From: Isoptericola sp.
GTDB taxonomy: Bacteria; Actinomycetota; Actinomycetes; Actinomycetales; Cellulomonadaceae
NCBI GenBank assembly: GCA_031181105.1
Contig: JAPSLD010000007.1
Span: 1 to 33,798 of the forward strand
Length of the DNA stretch: 33,798 bases
Reading direction: 5' to 3'
The position numbers and the translations under genes are program-made. Positions 18,525 through 30,742 of this stretch are shown one piece after another. The notes under the pieces are model-generated. The model was given only the letters and a program-made list of their open reading frames with translations, had not been told where the DNA came from and did no database searches. How positions within the stretch are numbered: the first letter of the stretch is position 1; every line of letters begins with the position of its first letter.

Positions 18525-19747
18525 CACGACACCTTCCGGCGGCCGGACGTGCGCGCGACGGGCGCGTCGTCCAGGTACGCCGCCTGCAGGGTGCGCAGCC
18601 GCTTCGACACCGGGTCCCGCGGCTGGTGGGTCACGAGCGGCACCCCCATGTTCATCGCCACGACGGCGGCCTTGCTGTGCGGCATCGAGGCGTCGACGCG
18701 CGTGCGGATGGTCGCCTGCACGTCGCTGAGGCTCAGGCCGGCTCGAGGGTCCGCGAAGTTGAGGACGATCCGGCGCGAGTCGGGCAGCATGCCGAGGTCG
18801 TGCAGGGCCTCGAGCTCCTTGCGCAGCCCGCGCACGCCCGGCACGTCCATGCTGGTGAGCAGCAGCGGGTCGGTCGTGTGGTCGAGCGCCGCGAGCGTGT
18901 GCGCACCGAGCCCGGCCGCGGTGTCGAGCACCACGTAGCGGAACTGCGACGCGAGCTGCACGAGGAGCGCTTCCACGTGCTCGGGCGTCACGGTTCCTCC
19001 CGCGGCCGGGTCCTCGGGCGCGCACACGACGAGCAGCCCGGAACCGTGCTGGGCGAGCTGCGTCTTGAGCGCGATCGGGTCCTCGTGGTTCCGGTGCCGG
19101 ACGATGTCGGCGAGGGTCGCCTCCGGCTCGAGACCGAGCGCGGTCGCGACGTCGCCGAACTGCAGGTCGAGGTCCACGAGCACCGTGGAGCCGGCCTGTG
19201 CCTGGGCTAGACCGACCGCGAGGTTCGTGGCGACCGTCGTCTTGCCCACGCCACCCTTCGGTGACAGCACCGAGACGACCCGGCCCGGGCGGGGCGCCGT
19301 CGGGGTGGGTGTCCAGGGGGGCTCGAGCCCGGTGTCCGGCACGGAGGCCGGTACGCCGACGGGAACGCGGCGCACCCGCGCCGCTTCACCGACTCGGGCC
19401 AGCACGTCGCGCAGGTGCTCGACGGAGACCTCGGCCGGCACGACGTCACGGACGCCGGCACGCAGCGCCGCGATCGCGAGCGCGTCGTCCGCCGTGCCGA
19501 CGAGAACGAGGCCCGTGCCGGGGAAGAGCCGGTCGAGACCTCCCGCGAGCTCGAGAGCCTCGCGCCGCGAGGTGGTGGTGTCGAGGACGACGATGTCAGG
19601 CAGCGGCGCGCCGCGGAGCTGGCCGAGGAACGCCGCCGGCTCCACCGAGAGTGGCGTCGCCGGGACGGTGATGCAGGCGCCGTCGGCGGCGGTGTGGACC
19701 CGCTCCTGGAGCGTGTGCGAGTCGGTGGCGAGCAGCACGTTGTTCAC
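18524..19747 (-). CDS. CpaE/TadZ-like pilus localisation ATPase (receiver-like + MinD/ParA)
   Basis: VVSVLSPKGGVGKTTVATNLAVGLAQ deviant Walker A; LVDLDLQFGDVATALGLEPEATLADI; N-terminal receiver-like domain. Confidence 0.92.
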
Positions 19748-20466
19748 TCGAAGATCACCTCCGGCGTCACGATCCGCGTGCCGTCCTCCGAGGCGTCCTC
19801 CGGCTCGATCGACAACCAGATCAGCTCGTACTCGGCGGCGTACACCACCTTCTCGGCGTCGGGAGCGGGGAGCGCCAGGGTGACCATGACGCTCTCGGCC
19901 GGAGGGCTCTCCGTCTCCTGGCCGTCCTCGCCCGTGACCTGGCGAGGGCCGCCCCGCACGTCGGTGACGAGCACCTTGTGCAGGGTGAGGTGCGTCGCCT
20001 GGGGAGGCTTCGCGTCGACGTCCAGCGAGACGAACACGCCGACCGTGTCGCCCGGCTCCAGCCCGCCGCCGACCACGCGGCGCGGCTCGAGCTCGATCGT
20101 CAGCTGGTGCAGGTCCGGCGGGACCTCGACCCTGGTCCGCCGGTCGTCCGGCGCCACGAATCGCGCCCCGACGAGCTGCTCGCCCGGCACCAGGTCGGCG
20201 GCCGCCACCCTTCCTTCGAGCGTGGCGAGGTCGGTGACGGCACCTGGGACGACCGTTCCGGCGGGAACCTCTCTGACCTCGACGAGCTCGCCGAGGGCCT
20301 CGGCCTCGGTACCCGCGGGGATCGGCTGCGCGACGACGAGCACGCTCGTCGGTTCCATCTCCGCCATCGCGCGGCGGTCCGCGCCGGCGGCGTACATGTA
20401 CGTAAGTGCTCCACCGGACACCGCCAGCACGGCGGCGACGACGATGGTGACGATGCGACGGGTCAC
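19744..20466 (-). CDS. cpaB: Flp pilus assembly protein CpaB/RcpC (SAF domain)
   Basis: MTRRIVTIVVAAVLAVSGGALTYMYAAGADRRAMAEMEPTSVLVVAQPIPAGTEAEALGELVEVREVPAGTVVPGAV...GLEPGDTVGVFVSLD. Confidence 0.88.
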   Translation of the reverse strand: MTRRIVTIVVAAVLAVSGGALTYMYAAGADRRAMAEMEPTSVLVVAQPIPAGTEAEALGELVEVREVPAGTVVPGAVTDLATLEGRVAAADLVPGEQLVGARFVAPDDRRTRVEVPPDLHQLTIELEPRRVVGGGLEPGDTVGVFVSLDVDAKPPQATHLTLHKVLVTDVRGGPRQVTGEDGQETESPPAESVMVTLALPAPDAEKVVYAAEYELIWLSIEPEDASEDGTRIVTPEVIFE

Positions 20467-20473
20467 GATGTCC

Positions 20474-21517
20474 TCAGTTCTCTGTCAGCGTCAGCTCGAC
20501 GGCACCGACACCCAGCTGGGGCCCGTCCGGATCGAGCTCGTAGTCCCCGGAGGCGTCGACGAAGCGCTCGAAGGTCCCCTGGAGGCAACGTGCCTGGGGG
20601 TCGAGGCCGGCGTTCCGGCAGAGGTTCCGCCCGCCCGGGCTCACGTACTGGCCCGTGAACTCGTACTCGAGCAGCGTGAACGCCGCGAACCCGAGGATGC
20701 GGTACTCGCCGTTGGCGCCGCCCGCCTCGTTGGACACGTCGAAGACGGGGATCAGCACGGTCTCGCCGCGAAGCGCGTTGAAGTCCGACGGGCTGCAGCC
20801 GTTCGGCGGCGACTCGCCCGGCGCGGACGGCACCCAGCCGCCCGCCTCGACCGTCGGGCCGGTGCACCCGGCGCTCGCCGTGAGCCAGCCGAAGCCACCC
20901 GGCAGGACGTTGCCGGACGGTCCGGTGCAGCTCGAGTCGCTCGTCTTGGTGAACTCGAACGTCACGGCCTGCGGGTCCTCCGGGAACTCCACCCCGACCA
21001 GCACCCCGTCCTCGTACACAGGGCTGGCGCCCGCCTGCCAGATGAGCTCGCAGTAGGACAGCACGTACGGCAGCACCCCGGCACCACGCGCCGGGACGCC
21101 CCAGCGTGCGGTGGCGGCTGCCGCGAGATCGGCGGCGTCGTCGAAGCCCACGACCTGTGCGAAGAAGTGCTCCCGCGAGGAGTCGGTGCGCACGGTGACG
21201 ATCCCGGCGTCGGTGTCGAGCCGTGTGATCGTCGCCTCCGCAGGACCCCCGAACGGATCGTTGGCCGTCGCCAGGTCCGACGCCGTGGCAGCGCTGTCGC
21301 CACACTCACCGCGCGCGCAGTCCTGCGCGACGGCGAGCGCCGCGGCGTCCGCACCGGTCTGCAGCATCTGCCGGTCGGCGTGCATCGCCGCGATGTCGAC
21401 CGCGATGGCGGCGAAGCCCAGCAGCGGGACCAGGAGCAGGCCCACCAGGACCGCGGAGGCACCGCGGTCGCGGTCTGCGCCGAACCGGCGGCTGAGGCGG
21501 TCGGTCAGCCGTTGCAT
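20474..21517 (-). CDS. TadG-like pilus assembly protein (Tad_N domain)
   Basis: RGASAVLVGLLLVPLLGFAAIAVDIAAMHADRQMLQTGADAAALAVAQDCARG. Confidence 0.85.
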   Translation of the reverse strand: MQRLTDRLSRRFGADRDRGASAVLVGLLLVPLLGFAAIAVDIAAMHADRQMLQTGADAAALAVAQDCARGECGDSAATASDLATANDPFGGPAEATITRLDTDAGIVTVRTDSSREHFFAQVVGFDDAADLAAAATARWGVPARGAGVLPYVLSYCELIWQAGASPVYEDGVLVGVEFPEDPQAVTFEFTKTSDSSCTGPSGNVLPGGFGWLTASAGCTGPTVEAGGWVPSAPGESPPNGCSPSDFNALRGETVLIPVFDVSNEAGGANGEYRILGFAAFTLLEYEFTGQYVSPGGRNLCRNAGLDPQARCLQGTFERFVDASGDYELDPDGPQLGVGAVELTLTEN

Positions 21518-21909
21518 CGCATGCTCCCTGTTCCGGTGAGGTCGAGCGTGAAGAAGCCGCCGAGCGGCGTGAAGTCCGAGAGCGTGATGGTCACGCGCGC
21601 CGTCGCCGGCGTCCCGCCGGCGCCCGGGTCGCAGTTCTCGGGCGTCACCGCGATCTGGTCGGCGGTCAGGGTCACGGAGGGCGACGCCGAGTCGATCGCC
21701 GCCGTGCGTGCCCGGTCGGCGGCGTCGGCCTCGCGGGACAGCGCCAGGACGCGGACGCCGTCACGGGCGGCGTTCCCCAGGACGGTCTGCACGTGGTAGG
21801 CGTGACCGAAGCCGATGATCCCGACGACCAGCAGCAGGAGCACCGGGAGCACGAGAGCAAGCTCGACCGCGGCGGCGCCGCGGTCGTGCTCGGTGCGCGT
21901 GCTGGTCAT
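21505..21909 (-). CDS. TadE-like pseudopilin
   Basis: MTSTRTEHDRGAAAVELALVLPVLLLLVVGIIGFGHAYHVQTVLGNAARDGVRVLA. Confidence 0.9.
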   Translation of the reverse strand: MTSTRTEHDRGAAAVELALVLPVLLLLVVGIIGFGHAYHVQTVLGNAARDGVRVLALSREADAADRARTAAIDSASPSVTLTADQIAVTPENCDPGAGGTPATARVTITLSDFTPLGGFFTLDLTGTGSMRCNG

Positions 21910-22015
21910 GGTGCCCCCAGACATTCCGTGGTGGGAGAAGTGCGAGCTGCATTCGGGTTTGCGGCGTGGCGCCCGGATGTTTCGCGGGGCGCCACGCCGC
22001 CTCCTCACGGCGTGG

Positions 22016-22219
22016 TCACGGCGTCGTGACGGTGCCGAGCCTGGTCGCGATGTAGTCGAAGAACCGGTCGAGGTGTCCGCCGACGAGGCCGACCGCGACG
22101 ATGATCGCGACCGCGATGAGGCCCACGATCAGGCCGTACTCGACAGCGGCGGCACCGCGGTCCTGGGTCCGGAACTTGGCGGTCTCGAACCGGGCGGCGA
22201 TGAGGTGGAGGAGGTGCAT
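22016..22219 (-). CDS. flp: Flp-type major pilin
   Basis: MHLLHLIAARFETAKFRTQDRGAAAVEYGLIVGLIAVAIIVAVGLVGGHLDRFFDYIATRLGTVTTP; class IVb pilin motif G|AAAVEYGLI; SD AAGGGGA. Confidence 0.95.
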   Translation of the reverse strand: MHLLHLIAARFETAKFRTQDRGAAAVEYGLIVGLIAVAIIVAVGLVGGHLDRFFDYIATRLGTVTTP

Positions 22220-22304
22220 GGGAGTTCCCCTTCTGGTGATGTCGTCGGACGGGTGTCCGACTCGCTTCTCGCCGAGCGTCTTCCCGTTGTTTCGAATTCA
22301 GCAA

Positions 22305-22458
22305 GGGTGAAGTCGGGGGACATTTACCTCATCTGCACTTGTGTCGATCGGAGAAAATTGCTTTCACCCGTCAATTGCGGGTGACGAATGGGTGAAGGCG
22401 ACGGACATTTGCCGCTCCCGCAGAAACTTGCGCGAGAGTGAAATTTGCCTTTCACCCG
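22305..22458. repeat. Imperfect ~85-bp tandem duplication with GGGTGAA/TTCACCC boxes in the flp / tetR divergent promoter region
   Basis: Copy 1 GGGTGAAGTCGGGGGACATTTACC...GAAAATTGCTTTCACCCG (22305-22370); copy 2 GGGTGAAGGCGACGGACATTTGCC...GAAATTTGCCTTTCACCCG (22390-22458). Confidence 0.85.
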
Positions 22459-22492
22459 AGGCCGATGACGAGGTACGGGGCATAGTTCTTGC

Positions 22493-23143
22493 ATGACCCG
22501 CCCCCGGCGCGTCGGCTCCCCCCAGGGCCTGCGCGAGCGCAAGAAGGCTGTGACGCGAACGGCGATCGCCGACGCGGCCTTCGAGCTCGTCCGCGACCGG
22601 GGCGTGGACGCGGTGACGATCGAGGAGATCGCCGACCGCGCCATGGTGTCGCCGCGGACGTTCTCGAACTACTTCGGCTCCAAGGAGGCCGCCGTCCTGC
22701 ACGCCGGACACGTCGAGCCCGAGGCGCTGCTCGCGGGCTTCGACGACCGGCCGACCGAGGAGCCGCCGCTGGTGGCGCTCGACGCGACCCTGCGGGTGAC
22801 GATCCGTGCGCTCACACCCGAGCAGACCGGTGCGATCCGCGCCACGGAGGAGCTCGTCGAGCGCGACCCGGCCCTGCTCCCGTTCCGGATGGCGCAGTTC
22901 GACAGGTTCGAGGCGGTCGTGCGGCGCGCCGTCGCGCGCCGCCTGGGCGTCGAGGACGCCGAGGCCGCGTACCCACGGCTCGTCGCGGGGGCTGCGGTGT
23001 CGGCGATCCGCACCGCGTTGCGTCAGTGGATGCTGGACGAGCACGGCGACGCGGCGTCGCTGGCCTCGCTGGTCGAGCAGTACCTCGTCGAGCTCTCTGC
23101 GGGGCTCCCACCGGAGGCGGCGTCCGCGGCGGGGCACGGGTGA
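22493..23143 (+). CDS. TetR-family transcriptional regulator
   Basis: LRERKKAVTRTAIADAAFELVRDRGVDAVTIEEIADRAMVSPRTFSNYFGSKEAAV. Confidence 0.93.
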   Translation: MTRPRRVGSPQGLRERKKAVTRTAIADAAFELVRDRGVDAVTIEEIADRAMVSPRTFSNYFGSKEAAVLHAGHVEPEALLAGFDDRPTEEPPLVALDATLRVTIRALTPEQTGAIRATEELVERDPALLPFRMAQFDRFEAVVRRAVARRLGVEDAEAAYPRLVAGAAVSAIRTALRQWMLDEHGDAASLASLVEQYLVELSAGLPPEAASAAGHG

Positions 23144-23787
23144 CGGCCGCCGTGTCCCCCCTGGTCGTGGCCGGCGTGGCGCTCGTGTGCTCCACGGCGG
23201 CCGCGTCGGTCACGCCGTGGGCGCGCCGGCTCGTCCGGAGCGACTCGCGATGGCTCCGCGCCTGGGCGCCCGCCGTCCTGGCCGGCGTCGCCGGTGCCGG
23301 CGCCGCCGCGATTTCCGGGACCTGGGCGGAGATGCTCGCGTTCGCGACGCTCGCCGTCGCGTCGGGACTCCTCGTCCCGCTCGACCTCGCGACGTACCGG
23401 CTGCCCGACGCGATCGTCGGGCCGGCCTACCCCGTGCTCGTGGGCCTGCTGGCCGTGGCGGCCGCCGTCGAGGGCGACTGGGACCGACTCCTCCGCGCGC
23501 TGCTGGGCGGGCTCGCGGTACTGACCGGCTACTTCGTGCTCGCCCTGGTCTCACCCACGAGCCTGGGCCTCGGCGACGTGAAGCTCTCGGGTCTCCTCGG
23601 CGTGTTCCTGGGGTGGTTCGGCTGGCACACGGTGCTCCTCGGCACGCTCTCGGCGTTCGCGGCCTTCGCCGTCCTGGCGCTCGCCCTCCTGGCGGTCCGC
23701 CGGGTCTCCTTCCGCACCGACCTGCCGTTCGGCCCGGCGATGGTGCTCGGCGCCGCGGCGGGGGCCGCCTGGGCCACGGTTCTCTGA
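23140..23787 (+). CDS. tadV: A24-family prepilin peptidase (TadV/CpaA-like)
   Basis: VPLDLATYRLPDAIV and SLGLGDVKLSGLLGVFLGWFGW (two catalytic Asp motifs); GTGA overlap with upstream tetR. Confidence 0.9.
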   Translation: MTAAVSPLVVAGVALVCSTAAASVTPWARRLVRSDSRWLRAWAPAVLAGVAGAGAAAISGTWAEMLAFATLAVASGLLVPLDLATYRLPDAIVGPAYPVLVGLLAVAAAVEGDWDRLLRALLGGLAVLTGYFVLALVSPTSLGLGDVKLSGLLGVFLGWFGWHTVLLGTLSAFAAFAVLALALLAVRRVSFRTDLPFGPAMVLGAAAGAAWATVL

Positions 23788-24363: not shown

Positions 24364-24375
24364 CGTGCCGGCGGG

Positions 24376-24555
24376 CCCGTCACGAACCACGTGGACCGGG
24401 TTGCGCCAGATGGCCCCCTGCTTCACCTGGCGCAACCCGTCACGGGCTGTGCATGCCCGGCCACGCCAGATGGCCCCCGGTGCACCTGGCGCGACCCGTC
24501 ACGGGCTGCACTCGTCCGGCTGAACCTGGTGTGCCCCCGCCACCAAGCTCAACCG
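24376..24555. repeat. About 60-bp tandem repeat, each unit carrying an internal hairpin
   Basis: GCCAGATGGCCCCC at 24405 and 24465; CCCGTCACG at 24376, 24436, 24495; stems GGGTTGCGCCAG...CTGGCGCAACCC, GCCAG...CTGGC and degenerate GGCTGAACCTGGTG...CACCAAGCTCAACC. Confidence 0.8.
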
Positions 24556-24575
24556 GCCGATCGACCTCCGGATCA

Positions 24576-24600
24576 AGGGCGAGGCTTTTGCCTCAGCCCT
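24576..24600 (-). terminator. Candidate terminator of the small secreted peptide gene
   Basis: AGGGCGAGGC-TTTT-GCCTC(A)GCCCT: 10-bp stem, tetraloop, one bulged A; 45 nt past the peptide stop. Confidence 0.5.
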
Positions 24601-24645
24601 CCGGAGGAGCTGTATGCCGATCGCACGAACGTCGATCGATAGCTG

Positions 24646-24783
24646 CTACTTCGACGTGGGCCAGCACGTGACGCACATGGCGTGCGCCTGTGTCGATTGG
24701 CTCGCTGCTGCGGCACCGCCCGCGACGGGGACGGTGAGCACCAGCGCCACGGCGACTGTGGTGAGCATCCGCATCTTCTTCAT
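24646..24783 (-). CDS. 45-aa small secreted peptide with Cys-X-X-Cys C-terminus (candidate signalling peptide or modified-peptide precursor)
   Basis: MKKMRMLTTVAVALVLTVPVAGGAAAASQSTQAHAMCVTCWPTSK*; strong SD AGAGGAGAAG upstream of ATG 24783; classic n-, h- and c-region signal peptide with Ala-X-Ala sites. Confidence 0.75.
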   Translation of the reverse strand: MKKMRMLTTVAVALVLTVPVAGGAAAASQSTQAHAMCVTCWPTSK

Positions 24784-24895
24784 GGGGCTTCTCCTCTTGG
24801 GGCTTGTCCTGCTCGCGCGCTGCGTGACACCAGTCTTGCGCGTCGATGGCGGTTTGAGCAGCCAGAATGCTGACCACAAGTAGACATGGGAACAT

Positions 24896-25987
24896 GTGGC
24901 CGTGATCGACGGATCGCGTCCCGACGGGTCGCTCGACATCGACGAGACGACCCTCGCCGTGTACGGCGCGCTCCTGCGCGCCCGGACGACCGATGCCGCA
25001 GGGCTGTCGCGGGACCTGGGGGTGGACGAGGCCACGGCCAAGGAGGCCCTCGGCCGCCTGGTGCGCGTGGGGCTCGCCCGCAGGGGGGTCGACGGCGCGC
25101 CGTCCTACCGGGCCCAGGTGCCCGACGCGCTCCTCGACGACCTCGTCGAGGAGCGCTTCGAGGCCCTGGAGGCGGCCGCGGCGTCCCTGCGGTCGGTGCG
25201 GGCGACCGCGGCCCGCGTGCGCTCGCTCTACCACGGAGTCAGCGACAGCCGGAACGCGCTGGAGTTCGAGCGTCTCGACGGAGCGGACGCGATCGCGACG
25301 CGGATCGCCGAGCTGAGCGCGCGCACGGGCACGACGCTCGAGAGCGTCATGACCGTGGTTCCGCCGACCGCGCTCATCAACGGGGCGCGCGACTCCGAGG
25401 ACCGCCTCACCCGCCGTGGGGTCCGGCTCAGGTCGCTGCACCGTGCGGCAGCCCGCCGGTCGCCGGCACTGGCCGGCTACGGCGTCTGGCTCGCCGAGCG
25501 GGGCGGCCAGATCCGCACCACGCCGTGGCCGCTGCCCACGCAGTACATGCTCTTCGACCGCCGAGCCGCCGTCGTCTCGTTCGAGGAACCCGACCTCGAC
25601 GGCCCCGCGGCGGTCGTGCTGACGACCCGTGAGGTCATCACGTGCCTGGGGACGTTGTTCGACCTGCTGTGGGAGTCGGCGCTCCCGCTGCCGGACACGG
25701 CCACCGACGCCCCCACGGCGCAGCCGTCCGCGGGCGAGCTCGAGATCCTGCGGCTGATGCACGCCGGGTTGAAGGACGAGGCGATCGCCCGCGAGCTCGG
25801 CGTCTCGACGAAGACGGTACGCCGGGCGCTGTCGTCCCTCGCGGAGCGCCTGGGCGTCAAGGACCGGTTCTCGCTCGGCGTCCTCGCCGGATCCCAGGGG
25901 TGGCTGCGCGACAACCACGCCGGCGAGCATGCCGACGAGCACCGCGGCGGACGGTCGCCGCGCCCGTCGGACGTCGAGCGCGTGTAG
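24896..25987 (+). CDS. LuxR-type HTH regulator with TrmB-like N-terminal winged-helix region
   Basis: N-term LDIDETTLAVYGALLRARTTDAAGLSRDLGVDEATAKEALGRLVRVGLARR (TrmB-like wHTH); C-term GELEILRLMHAGLKDEAIARELGVSTKTVRRALSSLAERLGVKDRFSLGVLAGSQGWL (GerE/LuxR HTH). GTG start; possibly leaderless. Confidence 0.85.
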   Translation: MAVIDGSRPDGSLDIDETTLAVYGALLRARTTDAAGLSRDLGVDEATAKEALGRLVRVGLARRGVDGAPSYRAQVPDALLDDLVEERFEALEAAAASLRSVRATAARVRSLYHGVSDSRNALEFERLDGADAIATRIAELSARTGTTLESVMTVVPPTALINGARDSEDRLTRRGVRLRSLHRAAARRSPALAGYGVWLAERGGQIRTTPWPLPTQYMLFDRRAAVVSFEEPDLDGPAAVVLTTREVITCLGTLFDLLWESALPLPDTATDAPTAQPSAGELEILRLMHAGLKDEAIARELGVSTKTVRRALSSLAERLGVKDRFSLGVLAGSQGWLRDNHAGEHADEHRGGRSPRPSDVERV

Positions 25988-25989
25988 CG

Positions 25990-27474
25990 TCAGCGCCGCT
26001 TCGGGACCGGACCGTCGGGCCGGCGCCCGTCGAGGCCGGTGACGTCCTCGAACCCGGACTGCCCGCGCCCCGACGTCCGGTTGTACAGGTACGTGATGCC
26101 CCACAGCACGATGCCCACGAGGATCAGCGCGCCCGCGATGGCGTACTGGCCCTGCTGCGCGTCGCTCCGCGCCCACGGGCCCGCGAGGAACGCGCACGTC
26201 ACCGCGCCGAGCGCCGCGAGCGGCGCCCGGGTCCGGAAGTGCTCGTGGTCGACCGGCTGGCGCCGCAGGACGAGCAGGGCCACGTTGACCACGGCGAACA
26301 CGCACAGCAGGAGCAGCGACGTCGTGCCGCCGAGCAGCGCGACCGCGCTCGCACCGGCCTCCGACGCCTCCGCGCGCACGACGTAGGCGATGAGCCCGAA
26401 CGAGATCGCGGTGGTCACCAGGATCGAGACCCACGGCGTGCGCCGCGTGCGGTGCACCCGGCCGAAGGGGCGCGGGAGGACGCCCTGGTTGGCCATGCCG
26501 TACAGCAGGCGCGACGCCATCAGCATGTTGATCAGAGCGGAGTTGGCGACGGCGAACATCCCGATGAACGGGAAGAGCGTGTCGAACGGCACGTTCGGCG
26601 CGCCCGCCGCCACCACTTGGGTCAGGGCCGAGCCTCTCGACTCGTCCGTCAGGTTGCCGACGGGGACGAGCGCGACGGCGGTGGTGGCCACGAGCACGTA
26701 GATGAGCCCCGTGATCGACAGGCCCGCGAGCATCATCCGGGGGTAGTCCCGCACGGGGTGGTGGCACTCCTCCGCCATGTTGACCGAGTCCTCGAACCCG
26801 ACCATCGCGAAGAACGCGAGCGTGGTGGCCGCCGTCACCGCCAGGAACGCGCTCTTCTCGTCCGGGCTCTCGAAGATGACGACGCGGGAGAAGTCGGCGC
26901 GCCCCTGGGACATGCCCCAGATGCCCACGAAGATCACGAGCAGCAGGCCCGAGAGCTCCACGAGGGTCAGCACCACGTTGGCCTTGACGCTCTCCGACAC
27001 GCCGCGGAAGTTGACGAGCGCGACGAGCGCCATGAACCCGAGCGCGATCACGAGCCGGCCTCCGCTGCCCGCCTCCAGACCGAGGCCGAACCCGTCGCTG
27101 AGGAAGCCCGCGAACGCGTTCGACGCCGTCGACGCGGAGGTGATGCCGGAGCTCATCACCATGAACGCGATGATGAAGGTCACGAAGTGGATCCCGAAGG
27201 CCTTGTGCGTGTAGAGCGCGGCGCCGGCGGCCTGGGGGTACTTGGTCACGAGCTCCAGGTACGAGAACGCCGTGAGGGTCGCGACGGCGAACGCCACGAG
27301 GAACGGGGCCCACGCCGCTCCCCCGACCTCTCCGGCGACCTGGCCCGTGAGCGCGTACACGCCCGTGCCCAGGATGTCCCCCACGATGAACAGCAGCAGG
27401 AGCTTGGGACCCATGACGCGCCGCAGGCGCTGCTCGCCGGCCCGCGGGTCGTCGTTCACGACGTCCTGGCTCAT
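25990..27474 (-). CDS. APC-family amino acid permease
   Basis: RRVMGPKLLLLFIVGDILGTGVYALTGQVAGEVGGAAWAPFLVAF...GFEDSVNMAEECHHPVRDYPRMML; many TM helices; SD GAGGAGG before ATG 27474. Confidence 0.93.
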   Translation of the reverse strand: MSQDVVNDDPRAGEQRLRRVMGPKLLLLFIVGDILGTGVYALTGQVAGEVGGAAWAPFLVAFAVATLTAFSYLELVTKYPQAAGAALYTHKAFGIHFVTFIIAFMVMSSGITSASTASNAFAGFLSDGFGLGLEAGSGGRLVIALGFMALVALVNFRGVSESVKANVVLTLVELSGLLLVIFVGIWGMSQGRADFSRVVIFESPDEKSAFLAVTAATTLAFFAMVGFEDSVNMAEECHHPVRDYPRMMLAGLSITGLIYVLVATTAVALVPVGNLTDESRGSALTQVVAAGAPNVPFDTLFPFIGMFAVANSALINMLMASRLLYGMANQGVLPRPFGRVHRTRRTPWVSILVTTAISFGLIAYVVRAEASEAGASAVALLGGTTSLLLLCVFAVVNVALLVLRRQPVDHEHFRTRAPLAALGAVTCAFLAGPWARSDAQQGQYAIAGALILVGIVLWGITYLYNRTSGRGQSGFEDVTGLDGRRPDGPVPKRR

Positions 27475-28937: not shown

Positions 28938-29714
28938 TCAGCGGCGCCGGGCGAACGCCCAGGTCGACGCGCCGGCGAACAGGACGGCGAGGGCCGCGCA
29001 CCACACGACCGCGAGCAGCGCGCCGTCGGCCAGGGCGTCCCCCTGCGGCGCGCCCGGCGTCCCGCCGACGAGCAGCCCCCGCACGGTCTCGATGACGGGC
29101 GTGACCGGCTGGTGCTCGGCGAAGCCGCGCAGCCACGTCGGCATGGTGTCCACGGGCACGAACGCGCTCGACACGTACGGCAGGAACATCACGAAGAAGG
29201 TGAAGCCGCTCGCCGCGTCGGGCGAGCGCACGAGCACCCCGACCAGCACCGCCGACCAGGTGATGGCGTGGACGAAGAGCAGCAGCACGCCCACGGCGCC
29301 GACCCACTCCAGCGGTCCGGCGGTGGGCCGGAACCCGATCGCCGCGGCGACGCCGAAGACGACCGCCGTGGTCAGGAGGTTCTTCACGAGGCTGGCGACG
29401 ACGTGCCCCACCAGGACCGTCCCCGCCGCGACCGGCATCGACCGGAGCCGGTCGATCATGCCGCCGGACATGTCCCGCTCCACCGCCATCGCGGTGGCTG
29501 CCGCCCCGAACCCCGCGGTGAGCAGGATGATGCCCGGGGTGGCGTAGGTGACGTAGGAGGTGCCGACCTCGAGCGCGCCGCCGAACACGTAGGTGAACAT
29601 CAGCAGGATCACGACGGGCAGCACGGCCGCGGTGATCATCGAGTCGACGTCGCGACGCACGAGCCGCAGCCCGCGGCCGGCGAGCGTCACGGCGTCGGTC
29701 GCGAGGGCGGTCAT
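28938..29714 (-). CDS. ABC-2 type transporter permease (DrrB-like)
   Basis: VILLMFTYVFGGALEVGTSYVTYATPGIILLTAGFGAAATAMAVERDMSGGMIDRLRSMPVAAGTVLVGHVVASLVKN. Confidence 0.93.
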   Translation of the reverse strand: MTALATDAVTLAGRGLRLVRRDVDSMITAAVLPVVILLMFTYVFGGALEVGTSYVTYATPGIILLTAGFGAAATAMAVERDMSGGMIDRLRSMPVAAGTVLVGHVVASLVKNLLTTAVVFGVAAAIGFRPTAGPLEWVGAVGVLLLFVHAITWSAVLVGVLVRSPDAASGFTFFVMFLPYVSSAFVPVDTMPTWLRGFAEHQPVTPVIETVRGLLVGGTPGAPQGDALADGALLAVVWCAALAVLFAGASTWAFARRR

Positions 29715-30742
29715 GCCGCCACCTCCTCGGCGGGCCGGGTCTGCTCGCCGGTGGCGGTCCCGGCACGCGTCGTGGTGCGCGCGGCGTGGCCCGTCAGGGC
29801 GAGGAAGACGTCGTCGAGCGTCGGGGTGCGCAGGTCCCAGCGACGGGGTGCGACGCCGGTGCGCTCGACCCCGGCGAGCAGCTCGCGCACGCCGGCGAGG
29901 GTGCCGTCGGTCGCGACGCGCACGGTCCGCGCGTCGGCGCCCCCGGGCACCGGGACGCCGAGGGCGGCCGCGACCCGCCCGGCGTCGTCGGTCGTGGCCA
30001 GCTCGAGCTCGAGCCGCACCTGGCCGACCTGCCGCTTGAGCTCGGCCGGACCCCCCGCGGCGGCGACCCGTCCCCCGTCGATCAGGGCGACGCGGTCGGC
30101 GAGCTGGTCGGCCTCCTCGAGGTACTGGGTGGTCAGGAACAGGCTGGTGCCCTGCGCGACGACGTCGCGCACCACCTCCCACATCGCCTGCCGCGAGCGC
30201 GGGTCGAGGCCGGTGGTCGGCTCGTCGAGGAACATCACCTCGGGCCGCGTCACGAGGCCGGCGGCGAGGTCGAGCCGGCGGCGCATGCCGCCCGAGTAGG
30301 TGCCCACCTGCCGGCCCGCGGCCGCCGTGAGGCCGAACGCCTCGAGGAGCTCGTCCGCCCGGGTGCGGGCGGCCCGGCGCGGCAGGTGCGCGAGCCGGGC
30401 CATCATCCACAGGTTCTCGCGCCCCGTCTGCCGGAGGTCGATGGCGACCTGCTGCCCCGTGAGGCTGATCCGCTCCCGCACGCGGGCGGCGTCGCGCACC
30501 AGGTCGAAGCCGGCGACGGTCGCCCGGCCGGCGTCGGGCGCCACGAGGGTGCTGAGGATCCGGACGGTGGTGGTCTTGCCCGCGCCGTTGGGCCCGAGCA
30601 GAGCGAGGACCTCTCCGCGGCGCAGCGTGAGGTCGACGCCGTCGAGCACGGGCACGCGGTCGCGGCCGCGGCCGTAGGCCTTGCGCAGGCCCGTGGCGTG
30701 CACGACGACGTCCCTCCCGCCCTCGGGTGGGGTGCGGTCCAT
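29711..30742 (-). CDS. Daunorubicin-resistance (DrrA)-like ABC transporter ATP-binding protein
   Basis: LLGPNGAGKTTTVRILSTLVAPDAG (Walker A), YSGGMRRRLDLAAGLVTRPEVMFLDEPTTGLDPRSRQAMW; ATGA-type overlap with permease. Confidence 0.95.
   Translation of the reverse strand: MDRTPPEGGRDVVVHATGLRKAYGRGRDRVPVLDGVDLTLRRGEVLALLGPNGAGKTTTVRILSTLVAPDAGRATVAGFDLVRDAARVRERISLTGQQVAIDLRQTGRENLWMMARLAHLPRRAARTRADELLEAFGLTAAAGRQVGTYSGGMRRRLDLAAGLVTRPEVMFLDEPTTGLDPRSRQAMWEVVRDVVAQGTSLFLTTQYLEEADQLADRVALIDGGRVAAAGGPAELKRQVGQVRLELELATTDDAGRVAAALGVPVPGGADARTVRVATDGTLAGVRELLAGVERTGVAPRRWDLRTPTLDDVFLALTGHAARTTTRAGTATGEQTRPAEEVAA

Follow-up and report, generated by a model that had tools for sequence, protein, structure and literature searches.

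A predicted secreted CxxCW peptide encoded divergently from a TrmB-LuxR regulator suggests an undescribed way of peptide sensing in actinobacteria

High-GC DNA is rich in spurious open reading frames (ORFs), and a very short one that diverges from a regulator gene in Isoptericola sp. raises two questions: is it a gene at all, and could its product be the ligand of the regulator encoded beside it? The locus lies in a stretch of 33,798 nucleotides, analysed as a whole and referred to here as the window. The original prediction described a minus-strand mini-ORF with a strong Shine-Dalgarno sequence and a signal sequence, and both its coordinates and its product are exactly as claimed. The ORF (24783-24646, minus strand) encodes MKKMRMLTTVAVALVLTVPVAGGAAAASQSTQAHAMCVTCWPTSK, a predicted propeptide of 45 aa composed of a Sec-type signal sequence and a short tail, CVTCWPTSK. 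Its Shine-Dalgarno sequence, AGAGGAGA, occupies 24790..24797 of the same strand, and the codons of the C-terminal core that is conserved in an alignment of 26 peptides (C37-V-T-C40-W41) occupy 24661..24675. The frame and a CVxCWPT tail are preserved in two congeneric orthologues, G156 and G145, whose peptides end in QAMCVACWPTSK and TTQCVACWPTAD. The Shine-Dalgarno sequence is conserved in G156 and weaker in G145. Across related peptides, the signal region and linker are variable and the tail is constant. Cleavage had also been proposed at the second of two Ala-x-Ala motifs (AHA|M), with release of MCVTCWPTSK. The motif reads AQA|M in one congener and is absent from G145, and cleavage at this position is thus not a conserved feature.

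Short as it is, and with Cys and Trp codons close to its 3' end, the ORF could also be a Cys/Trp-codon attenuation leader. This very improbable reading is ruled out by the arrangement of the window, where nothing lies downstream on the peptide strand and the next gene, encoding a macro-domain protein, is convergent with the peptide gene; the retention of signal sequences across relatives also speaks against it. Between the macro-domain and peptide genes, a ~60-bp unit with CGCCAGATGGCCCCC...CACCTGGCGC is present in two tandem copies (24404-24532), a pattern with no further occurrence elsewhere in the assembly.

The divergent gene (24896..25987, plus strand; start at GTG 24896 or GTG 24902) encodes a one-component regulator of 363 aa, the proposed receptor. 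Pfam matched both of the domains that had been expected in it, namely a TrmB-type winged helix-turn-helix (HTH; PF01978) at aa 13-72 (24932..25111), which exceeds the gathering score with E = 4.2e-9, and, at aa 280-327 (25733..25876), a LuxR/GerE HTH (PF00196, E = 6.5e-9). Between them lies a putative sensor region, the middle region (aa 123-262; 25262..25681), which was aligned to TrmBL2; positions 3-242 of the regulator profile align with TrmBL2 chains over the HTH and middle region (E = 5.7e-11). By Pfam, the regulator has DNA-binding and middle domains only, with no kinase or membrane domain. The source genome, in an assembly that is 74% complete, contains a single full-length copy. An AF2 model of the regulator (two sequences) reached a pLDDT of 44 and was too poor for use.

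The two genes form a cassette (24364..25989) between the macro-domain gene and an APC permease gene. Close orthologues of the regulator are found in three of the 18 genomes of the genus (G000; G156, 77% identity; G145, 64% identity), and strong peptide matches are confined to the same three (E = 1e-24, 3e-14, and 5e-8; the next match has E = 0.05), such that the rest have neither gene. The cassette adjoins the APC permease gene in all three carriers. The empty site was directly seen in four genomes: the macro-domain and APC genes are ~80 bp apart in G141, which has neither cassette gene, and are likewise adjacent without the cassette in G137, G149, and G153. The peptide and regulator genes are therefore gained and lost as one unit. 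The APC permease gene noted in the original prediction is indeed present downstream of the regulator on the opposite strand (25990-27474). Since peptide and regulator come and go jointly and the empty sites retain the APC gene, the permease lies outside the unit and is ruled out as a component of the system. Elsewhere in the window, an ABC ATPase and ABC-2 permease gene pair (28941-30742) is located outside the cassette, 3 kb from the regulator and beyond a ketosynthase gene, and genes for Flp-type pilin, TadE-like, and prepilin-peptidase-like proteins are found at 19744-23787, as read from the ORF list only.

We gathered 129 related regulators by regulator similarity and not by peptide, with a mild bias in that two of the regulator searches were centred on genomes in which the peptide had already been seen. 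Fixed criteria were applied to their flanks: an ORF of 28-70 aa, a Shine-Dalgarno sequence, a signal-like N-terminus, and CxxC within the last 20 residues. Such ORFs were present in 18 of the 129 upstream flanks and in two downstream flanks, and in none of eight shuffles of the upstream flanks. When the 129 regulators were placed in a maximum-likelihood tree, one clade (SH-aLRT 97) took in 24 of the 25 that are CxxC-linked; two of its 35 tips are one locus, leaving 34 distinct regulators. With both flanks searched to 1300 bases, a qualifying ORF was found at 20/35 tips of the clade, and at 0/46 when a distant part of the tree was taken for comparison (Fisher 6.9e-10). The comparison largely bears out the expectation of an adjacent, divergent, secreted ORF with a conserved C-terminal CxxCW near related regulators. 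Shuffled flanks of the clade yielded no qualifying ORF and those of other groups at most one per round; these shuffles, together with the distant regulators as controls, are the basis of our estimate of chance. Two new regulators near that of G852 were then fetched as a forecast, and both have a divergent ORF with a predicted signal sequence, ending SPCIDCW, 371-372 bases upstream. The clade-wide recurrence, the shuffle and clade controls, and the successful forecast refute a chance ORF, for which hardly any probability remains despite the abundance of spurious frames in such DNA. The peptide/regulator pair is almost certainly real.

Divergent CxxC-tail mini-ORFs with predicted signal sequences occur in several genera and at least three families, including genus g10 (paralogues of G080, and G051, G108, and G120) and families f17 (G644, G653, G673, G685, G690, G696, and G709) and f45 (G852). 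Among the 26 aligned peptides, CxxC lies no more than 10 residues from the end in 25 and is directly followed by Trp in 18; V, I, and M predominate at the first position inside the motif, and the flanking positions are variable. In G407, G472, and G621 (loci L067, L110, and L111), the ORF is on the strand of the regulator, lacks a classical signal sequence, and has CVVCW or CMVCW as its very last residues. G080 (loci L092, L098, L101-L109, L176, and L177) is a small genome with 11 related regulators, several of them with a different CxxC peptide of their own, as expected of parallel channels. At L177 of this genome, the peptide gene is duplicated. The pairing is strong but not universal, because for about eight of the 34 regulators of the clade (L121, L117, L113, L154, L093, L098, L102, and L106) no CxxC ORF within ~5 kb is convincing; these receptors may be orphans, or their partners may lie elsewhere.

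What kind of system could such a pair form? RRNPP quorum sensing, exemplified by Rap, NprR, PlcR, Rgg, PrgX, and AimR, is found mostly in Bacillota. Its features include adjacent genes, an exported propeptide, and a TPR-containing receptor of 250-500 aa (PMC10075063). The pair described here resembles RRNPP in the adjacency of genes for a predicted exported propeptide and an HTH receptor, in receptor length (363 aa), and in a predicted small, C-terminal mature tail. It differs in its TrmB HTH, TrmBL2-like middle region, and LuxR HTH, in its CxxCW tail, and in belonging to Actinomycetota; as no TPR is among the Pfam matches listed for the regulator, it is not an RRNPP member. With archaeal TrmB and TrmBL2 it shares the N-terminal TrmB HTH and an alignable middle region, but it has an additional C-terminal LuxR HTH and, as its partner, the gene of a predicted secreted peptide, and the C-terminal sugar-binding domain of TrmB, PF11495, is not among its 25 Pfam matches listed. 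The C-terminal LuxR/GerE HTH is also that of AHL LuxR receptors and LuxR solos, whose N-terminal half is different; the autoinducer-binding domain PF03472 is likewise not among the 25 matches listed, and the regulator is not an AHL receptor. Agr cyclic autoinducing peptides offer a Gram-positive parallel for a Cys-containing peptide signal, as proposed here, but act through the AgrC/AgrA two-component pair in place of a one-component receptor, and a Pfam scan of the neighbouring genes in the window found no AgrB processing enzyme, AgrC, or AgrA.

Signals of Actinomycetota are described as typically enzyme-made small molecules, and genetically encoded peptide signals with cytoplasmic receptors are known mainly from Bacillota (PMC10075063). 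TrmB goes unmentioned in a census of the LuxR proteins of actinobacteria (PMC3466318). The literature searched, the scope of which left out most subscription papers, contains no description of the peptide/TrmB-LuxR pair. The recurrence of the pair across many actinobacteria and its gain and loss as a unit suggest an undescribed way for them to sense their own peptide signals. The best reading is that the pair works like RRNPP but with an unrelated, TrmB-LuxR receptor. If true, the cassette would be a second, non-homologous receptor solution to RRNPP-type logic, and the clade would offer a large set of ligand-receptor pairs, predicted from sequence, that could be tested with cheap synthetic peptides.

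A peptide pheromone and its receptor are, on balance, the likeliest explanation of the pair. We infer that the 45-aa propeptide would be translated, exported via its Sec-type signal sequence, and trimmed to a short CxxCW peptide, possibly closed by a disulfide, with SQSTQAHAMCVTCWPTSK and MCVTCWPTSK as candidate forms of the tail peptide. Because Pfam gives the regulator no kinase or membrane domain, an exported ligand would have to return inside, as in RRNPP; the cassette contains no re-importer gene, and uptake would probably occur through an oligopeptide permease. Once inside, the peptide is predicted to bind the middle region of the cytoplasmic regulator, which would then alter how the peptide gene and its own gene are transcribed from their shared divergent promoter. 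Further targets may exist; plausible ones are the ABC exporter genes that neighbour the pair at several other loci.

The original prediction that the middle domain senses the peptide is only indirectly supported. Distances between peptide tails correlate best with distances between middle regions (r = 0.67), followed by the LuxR HTH (0.59) and the TrmB HTH (0.42). The partial correlation is 0.40 for the middle region given the LuxR HTH (p = 0.0005) and 0.12 for the reverse (p = 0.07), in a test that leaves tree structure uncorrected and in which the middle region is longer, hence less noisy, than the HTH. The closer agreement of the tails with the middle region than with the LuxR HTH is in line with the prediction; with relatedness remaining in the correlation and region lengths differing, the co-variation is a pointer to the sensor region and not a proof.

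The peptide could instead be an effector (antimicrobial, or redox- or metal-active), its gene controlled by the regulator through another ligand, with ABC exporters serving for transport or self-protection. CxxC is a common redox and metal motif, which the peptide matches. At about half of 20 enlarged loci (a raw count), ABC ATPase genes lie within ~5 kb, in most cases accompanied by a likely permease gene that is ABC-2-type or unassigned, and ABC genes directly follow the peptide gene in G709 and G852. However, the loci have no modification or immunity gene in common, and the cassette in the genus of the window consists of peptide and regulator only; beside the cassette in the window, where the neighbours encode the macro-domain protein and the APC permease, there is no RiPP or bacteriocin modification enzyme and no immunity gene. 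The co-variation of the tail with the middle region and the different tails of paralogues within one genome also weigh against an effector, which we consider unlikely. Less probable still is a propeptide that stays unexported or membrane-held and binds the regulator intracellularly as a short antagonist, export being a means of disposal or timing in a form of self-sensing. The regulator is cytoplasmic by its domains and three peptides lack a classical signal sequence, as such an antagonist would allow, but most peptides have a clear one, and export would place the conserved core, at the far C-terminus, outside the cell.

For the pheromone-receptor reading, a candidate operator is available at the shared promoter. 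The perfect inverted repeat ACATG-GGAA-CATGT (ACATGGGAACATGT; 24884..24897), of the form ACATG-N4-CATGT, overlaps the start of the regulator gene and occurs once in the window with one mismatch allowed (0.15 expected). Among the 210 loci scanned, it is confined to those of the three carrier genomes, where it is contained in the most conserved intergenic stretch, a block beside the regulator start.

In a neighbouring part of the regulator tree, we observed mini-ORFs with predicted signal sequences and a Trp near the end at 22 of 48 loci; shuffles gave one to five, and the distant part 2/46 (p = 2.7e-6). Their tails include DPQWE repeats, SIGWD, DGIIWD, DPGWQ, DPTWD, GAGWDT, DMGWG, and TDSLWD, among others, and Trp-repeat or Trp-tail loci are L013-L020, L143-L164, and L059-L064, Streptomyces plasmids included. 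On these plasmids, similar ORFs near regulators are annotated as hypothetical proteins. This pairing is less certain, because some of the ORFs lie downstream in convergent orientation and chance probably accounts for a few. Seven such peptides gave no meaningful Pfam or NCBIfam match. ORFs of this kind are found near a gene for a MupA-type luciferase-like monooxygenase in NBC_01006 and NBC_01343 and near beta-ketoacyl synthase genes in NBC_01244. We tentatively propose, at somewhat less than even confidence, an undescribed superfamily of peptide-signalling pairs extending across the class Actinomycetes, in which the partners of TrmB-LuxR receptors would be secreted peptides of two types, with CxxC(W) tails in the clade and with Trp tails or Trp repeats in the neighbouring group that includes Streptomyces; some pairs would lie inside biosynthetic gene clusters as possible natural triggers. 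If the Streptomyces group works likewise, silent antibiotic clusters might be awakened by peptides of this kind. The four regulators that we checked in the distant part of the tree (L070, L072, L133, and L134) are divergent from S8 subtilase genes and not from mini-ORFs.
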